A stretch of DNA of 64,000 nucleotides from Deltaproteobacteria bacterium (GTDB lineage Bacteria > Myxococcota > Myxococcia > Myxococcales > 40CM-4-68-19), in contig VBKL01000048.1 in the NCBI GenBank assembly GCA_005879805.1, positions 1 to 64,000 of the forward strand, in the 5' to 3' direction. The translations under genes were made by a program, and so were the position numbers. The notes below the pieces were generated by a model. That model was not told the DNA's origin. It saw nothing but the letters and a program-made list of their open reading frames with translations, and searched no databases. Every line of letters begins with the position of its first letter. Within the stretch, counting starts at the first letter, position 1. This document shows, piece by piece, positions 1,826-60,456 of the stretch.

Positions 1826-1865
1826 CGCCGCCGTCCGTTCTATCAAAACCGGTGGGGCGTTGTGG

Positions 1866-1910
1866 ATGCTCCGCGCCTTCGCGCTCCGCCCGTCGCTGTC
1901 GCTCGCTGCC
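1866..1910 (+). repeat. Diverged copy of the dispersed palindromic repeat
   Basis: The first ~32 bases (GCTCCGCGCC, then GCGCTCCGCCCGTCGC) match the repeat unit tandemly arranged at 24534-24847, while the 3' half has decayed. It lies between the divergent GNAT and DUF2203 genes and ends just before the DUF2203 start. Confidence 0.6.
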
Positions 1911-1911
1911 C

Positions 1912-2382
1912 ATGGTCGTGTACGTTGCACTGGTGAATCCGCTCGAGCACGTACGGATCTTCTCGCTGCGGGAGGCGAACGCGCTGGTGCCCCGGCTGCA
2001 AGAGCAATTCGAGCAGATCCGCGAGCTGCGCTCGGAGCTTCTCGCCGTCGAAGGCCAGCTGGCCTCGCTGGGTCACCCGATTTCCGAGCCCCACGAGGTC
2101 GATCCGCGAGCCCCCGCCGCGGTGCAGCGACTGCAGCGGGTGGCGAAAGACCTCTTTGGCCAGATCGTCGGGATCCTGGGCGGGCTCGGCGAGCTGGGCA
2201 TCGAGGTCAAAGCGGCCGACGGCCTCGCCGATTTCCGCAGCCGCCTGCACGGCCGCACCGTCTATCTCTGCTGGCGGTTCGGCGAAGAGGCCATCACGCA
2301 CTACCACGAGCTGCACGGCGGGTTCGCCGGCCGCCGCCCGCTCCCCGCGGACGGCGACTTCGTCGGCGACCTGTTGCAATGA
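1912..2382 (+). CDS. DUF2203 family protein
   Basis: A 156-residue soluble protein that matches the DUF2203 family in length and pattern: N-terminal FSLREANALVPRLQ, a helical middle, and the C-terminal block VYLCWRFGEEAITHYHELH followed by GFAGRRPL. The family has no established biochemical role. ATG at 1912 is used; an in-frame GTG two codons later is possible. The gene starts directly after a decayed copy of the dispersed repeat, so its promoter region may have been altered by it. Confidence 0.8.
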   Translation: MVVYVALVNPLEHVRIFSLREANALVPRLQEQFEQIRELRSELLAVEGQLASLGHPISEPHEVDPRAPAAVQRLQRVAKDLFGQIVGILGGLGELGIEVKAADGLADFRSRLHGRTVYLCWRFGEEAITHYHELHGGFAGRRPLPADGDFVGDLLQ

Positions 2383-9805: not shown

Positions 9806-9847
9806 ACGGCGAGTCTCCTGATCGCGTCCGGAAGGACGCCGGGGAAG

Positions 9848-9893
9848 GAGCGGGCTTTGTCCGCGACGGGCAGAGCCCGAAGGGTGGAGCGTC
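9848..9893 (-). repeat. Dispersed palindromic repeat, copy in inverted orientation
   Basis: Reads GAGCGGGCTTTGTCCGCGAC on the plus strand, the reverse complement of the unit at 24534-24847 with a few substitutions. It is followed after 2 nt by a second copy. Confidence 0.75.
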
Positions 9894-9895
9894 GG

Positions 9896-9946
9896 GAGGA
9901 GCGGGCTTTGCCCGCGACGGGCGGAGCCCGAAGGGCGGAGCACCGG
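9896..9946 (-). repeat. Dispersed palindromic repeat, second adjacent inverted copy
   Basis: Contains GAGCGGGCTTTGCCCGCGAC, with the perfect hairpin GCGGGCTTTGCCCGC. The outer arm differs from the main unit, with GCCC/GGGC pairing replacing GCCTGCG/CGCAGGC, so base pairing is kept despite sequence change. Confidence 0.75.
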
Positions 9947-23854: not shown

Positions 23855-24490
23855 TCACTGTCCGAAAAAATCGCCGAGCTTCTCGCGGAGCGCCAGCCTT
23901 GCGCGGTGCAGACGGCTTTTCACCGCCGGAACCGTGAGATCGAGCGCGGAAGCGATCTCCTCGTTGGAGAGCCCGTCGACGTCCTTGAGCAGGAACACGG
24001 TCCGATAATCCTCCGGCAAGGCAGTGACCGCCTGGTCGATCGCCTGCCCCAGTTCGCGATCCATCATCTGCGTATCGGCCCTCTGGGACCAATCATTTTG
24101 TGGCTCGAGGAACCCTTCCACCGAGAATTTCGGTCCTTGGAGCTCCAACGGTTGGTCCTGCAAGGCATCGGGAGCGCGCCGCTTGCGCCGTAACCGCATC
24201 AGGGCGCTGTTCGCCGCAATGCGGTAGAGCCAGCTCGAGAACTGGGCCTCTCCCCGGAAATTGGGCAGTTTCTGGTAGGCGTTGAGGAAGGCTTCCTGGA
24301 GCACTTCCTGGGCGTCGGCCTCGCTCCCCGTCATGCGCAAGGCAAGCCGGTAGAGCTGCCGCTGGTGGCGCGCCACCAGCTCCGCGAAGGCGGCGCCGTC
24401 GCCGCGCTGGGCTCTTTCGACGAGCTCGCGGTCCTCGGGCTGTGCGCCCTGGCCCGCCGCAGCGGGCGCCTGTGCTGGCTGATCCGCCAT
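23855..24490 (-). CDS. ECF RNA polymerase sigma factor (RpoE-like)
   Basis: A 211-residue ECF sigma factor. Region 2 runs through EADAQEVLQEAFLNAYQKL and FSSWLYRIAANSALMRLRR; region 4 has LPEDYRTVFLLKDVDGLS and the helix-turn-helix NEEIASALDLTVPAVKSRL. Both DNA- and core-binding regions are complete. Directly upstream of a ZAS anti-sigma gene. The tandem repeat array begins 43 nt upstream of its start codon, so its promoter must lie in or before the array. Confidence 0.93.
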   Translation of the reverse strand: MADQPAQAPAAAGQGAQPEDRELVERAQRGDGAAFAELVARHQRQLYRLALRMTGSEADAQEVLQEAFLNAYQKLPNFRGEAQFSSWLYRIAANSALMRLRRKRRAPDALQDQPLELQGPKFSVEGFLEPQNDWSQRADTQMMDRELGQAIDQAVTALPEDYRTVFLLKDVDGLSNEEIASALDLTVPAVKSRLHRARLALREKLGDFFGQ

Positions 24491-24533
24491 CGAGGGGCCG
24501 CGACCCTAGGATACGCGCCGGATCCGGTCAAGG

Positions 24534-24847
24534 ATGCTCCGCGCCTGCGCGCTCCGCCCGTCGCAGGCAAAGCCCGCTCCTCTCCAATGCTCCGCGCCTG
24601 CGCGCTCCGCCCGTCGCAGGCAAAGCCCGCTCCTCTCCAATGCTCCGCGCCTGCGCGCTCCGCCCGTCGCAGGCAAAGCCCGCTCCTCTCCAATGCTCCG
24701 CGCCTGCGCGCTCCGCCCGTCGCGGGCAAAGCCCGCTCCTCTCCAATGCTCCGCGCCTGCGCGCTCCGCCCGTCGCGGGCAAAGCCCGCTCCTCTCCAAT
24801 GCTCCGCGCCTGCGCGCTCCGCCCGTCGCGGGCAAAGCCCGCTCCTC
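24534..24847 (+). repeat. Six-copy tandem array of a 53-bp palindromic repeat
   Basis: Unit starts are at 24534, 24587, 24640, 24693, 24746 and 24799 (exact 53-bp period; last unit ends at 24847). Each unit begins ATGCTCCGCGCCTGCGCGCT and ends GCTCCTCTCCA. Units 1-3 carry CGCAGGCAAAGCCC, units 4-6 CGCGGGCAAAGCCC. Within a unit GCCTGCG can pair with CGCAGGC, and GCGGGC with GCCCGC across an AAA loop; both stems share the middle arm. The array fills the gap between the ECF sigma start and the glcD stop (2 nt away). Confidence 0.95.
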
Positions 24848-24849
24848 CG

Positions 24850-26021
24850 TCATTCGGGGAAAATCTTGCCGGGATTCAGGAGATTCTCCGGATCGAACGC
24901 GTGCTTGAGCCGCCGTTGCAGCTCGATGACCGGGGCGGACTGCTCGCGGGAAAGGAACGGGCGCTTGGCGAGACCCACGCCGTGCTCCCCGGTGATGGTG
25001 CCGCCGAGGCGCAGCGCCGCGTCGAGCACCTCGATGACCGCCTCCTCTCCCTCGTGGCGCTGTTCCAACGAGTCGAAGAGCAGGTTCACGTGGAGGTTGC
25101 CGTCGCCGGCGTGCCCGTAGCACGCGGTCGGCAGACCGTGTTTCTCGCCGATGCGGCGGACCTCGCGGATGAGGTCGACGAGCTTCCCCCGCGGGACGGC
25201 CACGTCCTCGCTGATCTTGAACGGGCGGATATCGGTGAGCGCAACCGAGGTCATCCGGCGGGTCTCCCACAGCTTGCGGCGCTGCGCCTCGTCCTGCGCT
25301 GCGAGTACGTCGATCGCGCCCTGCTCCGCGCAAAGCTCGCCGCTCCGGGCGAGCTCCTCGGCCACGCCGTCGCCGTGCCCATCGAACTCCACCAGCAGCG
25401 CTCCGCCGACTCCTTCGGGAAACTTGAACGGTGCGCGCGGCGCCACGGTCCGCATGGTCGGTCCGTCGAACAGCTCGCAAGCCCGGGGAAGCAGGCCGGC
25501 ATCGAAGATGGCCTGGACCGAGGCGGCTGCCTCGTCCTCGCTGTGGAACAGCGCGAGCATCGTCTCCACCCGGCGAGGGAGGGGGATGAGCTTGAGGGTT
25601 GCCTCGGTGATGACGCCGAGGGTCCCTTCGCTCCCGACGAGCAGGTGCACGAGGTCGTACCCGGCAACGCCCTTCCAACTGCGGTGAGAATCACTCCGGG
25701 CTGCACGACGCAGACCATGTCGGCGCGCGAAATCTCGACGATGCGGTCCATCTTCTCCAGGGAAAGAATGATCCCGCCCCGCTCGGCGAGCGCGCCGCCG
25801 CTCTTGCCGCTGCCGGCGCCGCGCGGCACGACCGGGATCCGCGTCTCGCGGGAGTAGCGGAGGATCTTCGCCACCTCCTCGGCGCTGCGAGCCAGGACCA
25901 CCGCCTGCGGAGGGAACTTGCCGAGGCCGCTCTCGTCCTGCTCGTAGGCCGCGGCGCGCTCGCCCTGCGGGAGCACGGTCGCGCCGGGCACGAGGCGAGA
26001 AAGATCGTCGACGAGACTCAT
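24850..26021 (-). pseudogene. FAD-linked oxidase (GlcD/lactate dehydrogenase type), internal deletion and frameshift
   Basis: The N-terminal 115 codons (26021 to 25677) read as a GlcD-like FAD-binding protein, with VVPRGAGSGKSGGALA and the end VVQPGVILTAV. The frame then shifts at 25672-25680 and continues as KGVAGYDLVHLLVGSEGTLG to a normal C-terminus (CYGHAGDGNLHVNLLF; PENLLNPGKIFPE). In intact homologues about 65-75 residues lie between these two points (the PPDP ... GGNVAENAGG ... GVTRDYV region contacting FAD). That segment is missing and the reading frame is broken, so the product should be inactive. The ATG overlaps the SDR stop (ATGA). Confidence 0.85.
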
Positions 26022-26677
26022 CCGAACACCTCCACCGCGCTTCCCGTCAGGGCGAAAGGCGCCTCGCCGGCGAGGAAACGCACGACGCGGGCCACGTCCG
26101 TCGGGGTCATCTGCGGCTCGAAAGGAGTCTTCCTCAGCATGTCCGTATCGACGCTTCCTGGCAGCACGGCGGCGCAGAAGATACCCGCCTCGCGGCCTTC
26201 CTCGGCGAGCGATTTGACGAGACCCGTGAGGCCCCACTTGCTCGCGTTGTACGCGGCCGCCTCGGCGGTCCCCAGCGTGCCGCTGATCGAGCCCATGGCG
26301 ATGAGGCGGCCGCGGTTCCGGGCGAGCCCCTTCCACGCCGCGCGCGCGCAGAGGAAGGCGCCACGCAAGTTCACGCCGAGGACCCGGTCGAACTGCTCGT
26401 CGGTGAATTCCTCGATCGGGCCGCGCTCGAGGACTCCGGCGTTGAGGACCACGACGTCGGTGGGACCGAGGAGCGCCTCGACCTCGGCGAAGAATCGCCG
26501 GACCTGCTCTCCGTCGGCCACGTCGCAGCGGCGGGACAGGTCGGCGCGCGCCGAAGGAACGCTTCCCGAAGCGCACAGCGCCAGGCGCGCTCCCTCCGCG
26601 GCGAGCGCCTCCGCGCAGGCGAGACCGATGCCCCGGGAGGCCCCGGTGACGACGCAGACCTTTCCTTGCAGAGACAG
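26018..26677 (-). CDS. Short-chain dehydrogenase/reductase, probable CTG start
   Basis: A ~219-residue classical SDR: nucleotide-binding TGASRGIG (residues 11-18 from the proposed start), NAG, and the catalytic YNASK (YxxxK). The first ATG/GTG/TTG in frame is the GTG at 26521, which would remove the whole cofactor-binding segment. A CTG at 26677 is preceded by GGAGGG at 5 nt and gives a normal SDR N-terminus, so I use it. It overlaps no stop but begins 1 nt after the folE stop. It could act on a pterin given its neighbours, or be a FabG-like enzyme; substrate unproven. Confidence 0.75.
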   Translation of the reverse strand: MSLQGKVCVVTGASRGIGLACAEALAAEGARLALCASGSVPSARADLSRRCDVADGEQVRRFFAEVEALLGPTDVVVLNAGVLERGPIEEFTDEQFDRVLGVNLRGAFLCARAAWKGLARNRGRLIAMGSISGTLGTAEAAAYNASKWGLTGLVKSLAEEGREAGIFCAAVLPGSVDTDMLRKTPFEPQMTPTDVARVVRFLAGEAPFALTGSAVEVFG

Positions 26678-39129: not shown

Positions 39130-40787
39130 TCACTCATCCGTGGAGAGCGCGGCGACGACCGATTCCCGGCGCGTCTCGAAAAGTCGAGCGGCAAAGGCGA
39201 GCAGGCCGCCGTAAGCGAAGCTCATCGCGACGGCCAGTCCTGCGTAGGCGACGGCGGCGGGCAATCCGAGAACCGCGGCGATCGCGAACGGTCCCCAAGC
39301 GGCGAGGCTCAAGAGCAGGAGCGCGAACATGCGCGATCCGACGGGACCGCTCCCTCGCACCCTCCGCAGGCGCATCCCGCGGACCGGTACCGGCCAGAGG
39401 ATGCTGGAGACGTTTCCGACGGTGGCGAGGAGCGGGAAGAGCGCCAGGTGCGCGAGGAGAGCGATCGCCACCTGCTCCGCCGTCACCGGCCCCGTCGCGA
39501 CGGCCACGACGATCAGCGCGGCGAAGATGAGGACCGAGAAGACGTAGGCGACCGCGTTCTTGGCGACGAGGACGGCGCGGGGCGAGACCGGCCAGAGGAA
39601 CCACGCCCGCGCTCCGCCGAGATCGCGCCCGAAACAATTGGTGGCGAGCTCCAGCACGCCGAGGTGCGCGTAGACCGCGGCGAAGAGGAGCGGCTCGCGG
39701 CGGACGAATCCCGCGGCGTCCCGGAAGAAGACCGACCGCAAGACGAGGAAGCCGACCGACACCAGGATGATCTGGAGCCAGCCGACGCGCAGAACCGTCT
39801 TCGCCTCCTTCTCGACGAGCGCGGCGAGGCGGTCGGGGACCCCCGGGATCCGCCAGCCCCTGCTCTTCACCTTCGCCGACGGCGCCACAGTCACCTCGGC
39901 GGGACGCCGCGCTTCCCGGAGCGAGACGACGTGCGCGAGAGAGGCGCTGGCGAGACCTACGGCGAAAAGGAGAAAGGCGAAGGCAAGCGCGGGTAGCACG
40001 GCGCCGCTGGAGACATCCGCCGCGAAATGGGCGGCCCAGCCGGGCGGCGTGTACTCGACCGCCTTCCACGCGCTGCCGGCGAAGAGGCTCCCGACGCCGC
40101 GGCGGCCTGCCTTGGCGAGGCCGAGTTGGAACGAAGTGAACGCCGCGGCGAAGAAAACGACGCTGGCGATGCGGCGCACGGCGGGATGCGCATCGAGCGC
40201 TCCGGAAAGGGTGGCGACGAGGTGCAACAGGCCCGCTACCGCCCAGACGCAGAGGACCTCGGCGCTTAGAAGCGCGACCGGTCCGGGCATGCCGGGAATC
40301 CGCGATCCCGCGAAAGCCATCGCGAAAAGGATCGGCCAGAAGAAGAGCCAGGCCGGATCGAGCAACTCCGCCGCAAAGTTGAGCGCCGACACGAGGCGCG
40401 GAGGCACGGCGAAGACGAGGAAGCGGCGGGGATCGAAGAGGGCGCCGCTTTGTCCGCGGGGAAGCAGCGCGAACCAGATCCGCGCGAGGAGCACGCCCGC
40501 GAGCCAGGTGGCGAAGATGGCTACCGCTCCGCCCCGCGCCTCGACGCGCCCCGGAGCGTGCTGCAACTCGACGGCCTTGCCCCACACCGCCACTGCCACG
40601 CCACAGCTCACCGCGAGGCCGAGCAGGACGGAGAGGATGGAGAGAACGAGCCGCCCCCATTCGCGGCGCCGCGCGATCCTCCGCAGTGACAGCGTGAATC
40701 GCAGCCAGAGGAGCGCCCGGGCCTGGTCGCCGTATCCTCCGGCCTTCGACCTCCGCCCGTCCCCGGCGAGGCCAACTCCTGCCACCG

Positions 40788-40791: not shown

Positions 40792-43039
<2,248 letters not shown>

Positions 43040-60378: not shown

Positions 60379-60398
60379 GATGACCTCCGCCCGACCGT

Positions 60399-60447
60399 AT
60401 GCTACGCGCTGCGCGCTCCGCCCGTCGCCGGCAAAGCCGGCTCCTCC
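60399..60447 (+). repeat. Dispersed palindromic repeat, single copy
   Basis: GCGCGCTCCGCCCGTCGCCG, then GCAAAGCCGGCTCCTCC. The 3' stem is GCCGGC-AAA-GCCGGC, a paired change relative to GCGGGC-AAA-GCCCGC in the array units, so the fold is conserved though the bases differ. Lies between the MDR start and the DUF2461 stop. Confidence 0.85.
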
Positions 60448-60456
60448 GCGGGCGGC

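Follow-up and report, generated by a model that had tools for sequence, protein, structure and literature searches.

The window analysed here is a stretch of 64,000 nucleotides from a draft MAG. Between an ECF sigma factor gene and a glcD-like gene, both on the reverse strand, it holds a block of palindromic tandem repeats (24534-24847), each unit of which contains two hairpins (hp1 and hp2). The features of the locus are as follows.

23855-24490, reverse strand: ECF sigma factor gene flanking the array
24503-24531, reverse strand: predicted ECF sigma promoter, TTGACC-N17-TAGGGT, 1-2 bp from the array
24534-24586, forward strand: array unit 1 (GCAGGC type), with hp1 arms at 24541-24544 and 24549-24552, hp2 arms at 24563-24568 and 24572-24577, and loop AAA
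24587-24639, forward strand: array unit 2 (GCAGGC type)
24640-24692, forward strand: array unit 3 (GCAGGC type)
24693-24745, forward strand: array unit 4 (GCGGGC type)
24746-24798, forward strand: array unit 5 (GCGGGC type)
24799-24849, forward strand: array unit 6 (GCGGGC type), ending in CTCCTCCG and adjoining the glcD stop codon (24850-24852, reverse strand)
24850-25650, reverse strand: 3' part of the glcD-like gene flanking the array, separated from the 5' part by a frame change

The array (period 53, 5.9 copies, 99% match, TRF score 607) occupies the gap from the glcD stop codon to 1-2 bp before the predicted sigma promoter. The original prediction of six exact 53-bp tandem units was right in number and period, but the units are not exact: units 1-3 carry CGCAGGC and units 4-6 carry CGCGGGC, and the final unit diverges at its end, where the others read CTCCTCTCCA. 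The copy number of six is uncertain, as it comes from the MAG assembly and is not fixed by it. The array region had no match in Rfam, and its sequence had none among plasmid records.

In relatives the glcD and ECF sigma genes are also adjacent, and the gap between them holds no copy in the nine relatives where it was read. The TTGACC-N17-TAGGGT motif, which leaves the ECF sigma gene a very short leader, occurs with identical spacing in four relatives, and the predicted promoter core is intact beside the array. The glcD-like gene (24850-26520, reverse strand) consists of two frames meeting near 25665-25686, with about 58 residues absent relative to the continuous G001 protein; it appears broken here, either as a pseudogene or through an assembly error. 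Transcripts reading through from glcD could form up to twelve hairpins. An influence on mRNA ends has been proposed for REPs, and an effect of the array on the glcD mRNA is possible; as the core of the sigma promoter is untouched, any effect would most likely fall on the glcD transcript, at its 3' end.

The repeat unit comprises 51 bases, with two different hairpins that always stand in the same order and in direct, not inverted, orientation. Its plus-strand consensus is N-ATGCTCC-(hp1)-TCCGCCCGTC-(hp2: GCNGGC-AAA-GCCNGC)-TCCTCC, and hp2 reads GGAG-GA-GCGGGC-TTT-GCCCGC-GAC on the reverse strand. The commonest hp1 loops, TTC and TGC, correspond to GAA and GCA on the opposite strand, and triloops of the GNA type have unusual stability in DNA. 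The left and right halves are almost always found together, and the two hairpins travel as one unit. A genome-wide search for unpaired halves gave a few remnants and no pair flanking a gene, and an autonomous partner element carrying a gene between two half-elements was therefore rejected. A subtype with a longer middle between the hairpins, CGACTGGCGACG in place of CCCGTCG, was seen at L135:4405-4461, L136:2207-2263, L139:2135-2191, L140:2402-2458 and L141:7326-7382.

The stems keep their pairing while their bases change. Across 81 distinct copies, 93.5% of the base-pair cells pair, and cells in which both bases have changed number 65, against 18.8 in shuffles, none of 500 shuffles reaching the observed value; the copies are related, so these changes are not independent events. 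The signal was gone when the pairing partners were slid, and per-pair permutation in the window genome (G000) and in relatives gave p ≤ 0.001 for the pairs that vary, in hp1 and hp2 alike. Compensated hp2 stems are of three kinds, GCGGGC/GCCCGC, GCCGGC/GCCGGC and, in a relative, GCCAGC/GCTGGC, and those of hp1 include GGCC/GGCC, GCCC/GGGC and GCGC/GCGC. The conserved pairing of the 3' stem, as first proposed, was thus borne out, with compensatory hp2 variants exceeding every shuffle. Folding of single units was no better than that of shuffles (z of -0.8 to -1.5), so the structural evidence is the covariation.

The same proposal held that the middle arm might pair with either side, giving two stems that exclude each other. 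Some copies do have both GCCTGCG and CGCAGGC, but the association of hp1 loop type (TGC) with hp2 arm type (GCAGGC) was non-significant in two tests, once with p=0.075 and once, over distinct copies (16/10 versus 11/19), with p=0.107. This part of the prediction was not upheld.

Further copies lie elsewhere in the window.

1865-1913, forward strand: left-half remnant of the element
9843-9893, reverse strand: element copy, in tandem with the next
9894-9944, reverse strand: element copy, in tandem with the preceding one
40733-40783, forward strand: degenerate copy, 36 bits with the covariance model
42934-42984, forward strand: single element copy
60398-60448, forward strand: single copy with the compensated stem GCCGGC-AAA-GCCGGC

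The scattered copies expected at 9843-9944 (two), 42934-42984 and 60398-60448 were all recovered, as was the diverged one near 40734; the copy claimed at 1866 is related to the element, but only as a left-half remnant.

A covariance model built from 22 copies was then applied more widely. The window genome, a 5.02-Mb draft MAG that is 88% complete, gave at least 92 matches at E up to 0.1, about 87 of them below 1e-3, corresponding to about 85 copies at 76 sites once tandem copies were merged. At least 17 of 60 genomes, comprising its own and those of relatives, have matches, with up to 44 copies in G015, which belongs to a different family; at E 1e-4, at least 17 of 195 genomes of the phylum carry copies. 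Tandem arrays recur in several genomes. Two in G015 (L086:4971-5476 and L087:4943-5449) each hold some nine or ten units of this family, 54 bp in length, and contain runs of N, which make their assembled length unreliable. No relevant publication on such a repeat, either in Myxococcus or bearing a GGAG head, came up in a literature search. The search suggested by the original prediction has thus yielded many genome-wide copies, copies in relatives at the level of order and phylum, and compensatory changes; the repeats are neither confined to the window nor compensated at chance level, and the proposal of a REP-type structured, dispersed element stands.

These data also bear on the simplest reading of the array, a local tandem repeat that arose by slippage or as an assembly artefact and has no wider meaning. 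The array units are indeed nearly identical, and a MAG cannot fix their copy number. As a full explanation, this is refuted by the single copies that are dispersed in their dozens across several genomes and families and whose stems covary, and we give it practically no credence. The six-unit array is one cluster of a dispersed palindromic element of the REP/RPE kind.

The orientation of the copies relative to genes is biased. At intragenic sites the sense strand of the gene carries the reverse complement of the element in 14 of 15 cases in G000 and 22 of 26 in relatives. Genes were called with a codon-usage gene caller, and some copies called intragenic near a 5' end may precede the true gene start. 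At unidirectional sites the corresponding figures are 27 of 36 and 8 of 9. Gene starts within 60 nt in G000 lie on the preferred strand in 36 cases versus 14, in calls by a caller that favours starts after GGAG. A target preference was rejected as the source of the intragenic strand bias, as it predicts a ratio of 0.94.

These biases raise the question of whether the element is a structured mRNA element with a host function, placed on the sense strand and often just upstream of the Shine-Dalgarno sequence, where it would tune translation or mRNA stability, its orientation being set by selection. The excess of nearby gene starts on the preferred strand, the unidirectional bias (27:9 and 8:1) and the many copies adjoining GGAG are all consistent with such a role, as is a common mismatch in hp2: 31 of 99 copies have A.C at pair 3, equivalent to G.T, or a G.U wobble in RNA, on the preferred strand, and the reverse case (G.T) occurs once. 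Against it, the A.C class may be one old subfamily rather than many events, many copies are intragenic and in frame, and the sites differ between relatives. Furthermore, the downstream genes look unrelated by eye, the array lacks an Rfam match, and any regulatory role may be a secondary acquisition. We consider a host-function mRNA element quite improbable as the primary explanation.

Copies inside genes would be read as protein. Sense intragenic copies fall into two frames 17 and 14 times and into the third frame 3 times, a bias which suggests selection for tolerated peptides. The period of arrays inside called genes is 54 or 63, in each case a multiple of three, and the window array (53) is intergenic. 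Three clean cases from protein alignments (L034, L058 and L135:1910) have in-frame inserts of about 17 codons in G000 that are missing from orthologues; the insert at L114 is a less clear case, and the L034 host gene is, judged by eye, presumably permease-like. A further copy (L043:1501-1551) occupies the N-terminus of a gene that, by eye, seems to encode the amidophosphoribosyltransferase PurF (DKFHDECGVFGI); translation of that copy is putative. Because empty sites were compared between species at 70-80% DNA identity, insertion points are blurred and loss instead of gain is possible at a single site.

The ends of the element are sharp, and there was no excess of 3-5 bp target-site duplications over shuffled pairs. 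The flank beside ATGCT prefers pyrimidine, pyrimidine, G or C and then not C (about Y-Y-S-D), and the other flank shows a preference for G only; the target preference is thus short, one-sided and weak. The two ends of the element (ATGCTCC and CTCCTCC) do not form an inverted repeat. With neither terminal inverted repeats nor a target-site duplication, the element does not fit a MITE.

The closest likeness in sequence layout is to the GTAG-type REPs of Pseudomonas and Xanthomonas (PMC2817692; GTAG-1 in PMC3733652). Both are short GC-rich palindromes with a tetranucleotide head, GA and a 3-nt tail, as seen on comparing GGAGGAGCCAGCTTCGCTGGCGAC of G015 with GTAGGAGCCAGCTTGCTGGCGAA of P. entomophila, and both have compensated stem variants and, in some genomes, tandem clusters; the GA between head and palindrome marks the REPs of these genera (PMC2817692). 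The element shares with REPs its many dispersed copies, but there are distinguishable differences. The first is the head, which is GT(A/G)G in these REPs and GGAG in most copies here. The second is the constant partner of hp2, a different hairpin that stands in direct orientation to it. The third is the location: REPs lie mostly downstream of genes (PMC3733652), whereas many copies of this element are intragenic or just upstream of gene starts. Finally, no flanking RAYT was present at the loci examined. CGTC-tagged REPs likewise have no associated transposase and are known to have intragenic copies (PMC3733652), and this element resembles them on its plus strand in having CGTC before hp2, where CCGTC stands in nearly all copies, and TCC after it. 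Their stems, however, are of 8-9 bp with loops of 4-5 and A-T pairs at the stem base, against a 6 bp G+C stem and a 3-nt loop without such pairs here. In REPINs, too, two REP-like hairpins move as a unit, but their halves are inverted copies of one REP (PMC3116915), whereas the hairpins of this element differ and are in direct order.

In a strict RAYT-mobilised REP, one Y1 protein of these genomes would be the dedicated transposase, and a check for such a gene formed part of the original prediction. The Y1 proteins of REPs act on the single-stranded REP, whose head contributes to the choice of cleavage site (PMC8266576). The one-strand layout of hp2, GGAG-GA-stem-loop-stem-GAC, is close to that of GTAG-GA-type REPs, and Y1 genes are present in the window genome (six), in most carriers and, in large numbers, in relatives. 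Nevertheless, the covariance model gave no significant copy at any of 36 Y1 loci in these draft genomes, including the six of G000, and a head-plus-hairpin pattern gave one chance-like match; no Y1 gene was found in G015, a carrier of 44 copies whose draft is rated 95% complete. RAYT membership is therefore unsupported. With the different head and the direct hairpins, unlike the inverted ones of REPINs (PMC3116915), also speaking against it, we regard a dedicated Y1 transposase as unlikely.

The element is probably a non-autonomous, two-hairpin unit of about 51 bp that spreads as one piece, sometimes amplifies in tandem and is mainly selfish, with putative Y1/HUH mobilization in trans. It would move as folded single-stranded DNA by means of a Y1/HUH-type enzyme, a step suggested by the Pseudomonas/Xanthomonas REP-like layout of hp2 and the lack of target duplication. 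Tandem growth would follow by slippage or unequal recombination, the window array between glcD and the ECF sigma promoter being one instance of it, and gene copies would be kept where an insert of about 17 residues is tolerated. The element is an unusual form of a known kind, combining a direct two-hairpin unit, a gene-sense bias, in-frame gene invasion and recurrent tandem growth with no identified transposase.

Rickettsia is the best-known source of palindromic inserts that code for protein. The palindromic elements of that genus (RPEs) likewise lie in frame in unrelated protein genes, with a preferred peptide (PMC10969869); they are about 150 bp long and belong to AT-rich obligate intracellular bacteria, whereas this element is 51 bp in a GC-rich genome, and we liken the two by behaviour, claiming no sequence relation. 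PARCELs are also palindromic DNA coding for peptide repeats in tandem (PMC2996958), but these are 25-residue amphipathic repeats arrayed in ORFs of unassigned function, in contrast to a 17-18 residue insert in otherwise ordinary genes. Tentatively, one may go a step further: a 51-bp module without a detectable transposase could supply the genes it enters with a prefabricated peptide of about 17 residues in frame (e.g. GGAGFARDGRRPQAGAY) and lengthen by 18 codons at a time. Its choice of strand would be linked to transcription of that strand, in which case dispersal or survival might act on RNA or peptide and not on DNA hairpins only.

The same in-frame behaviour in GC-rich bacteria of another phylum, together with a Pseudomonas-REP-like hairpin and no flanking RAYT, links two kinds of repeat. 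The element offers a system for asking how transposase-orphan palindromes spread, and its sense-strand and frame biases make selection on peptide or RNA directly testable. Where similar 17-residue stretches recur in unrelated proteins of these genomes, they stem from mobile DNA and are not domains.
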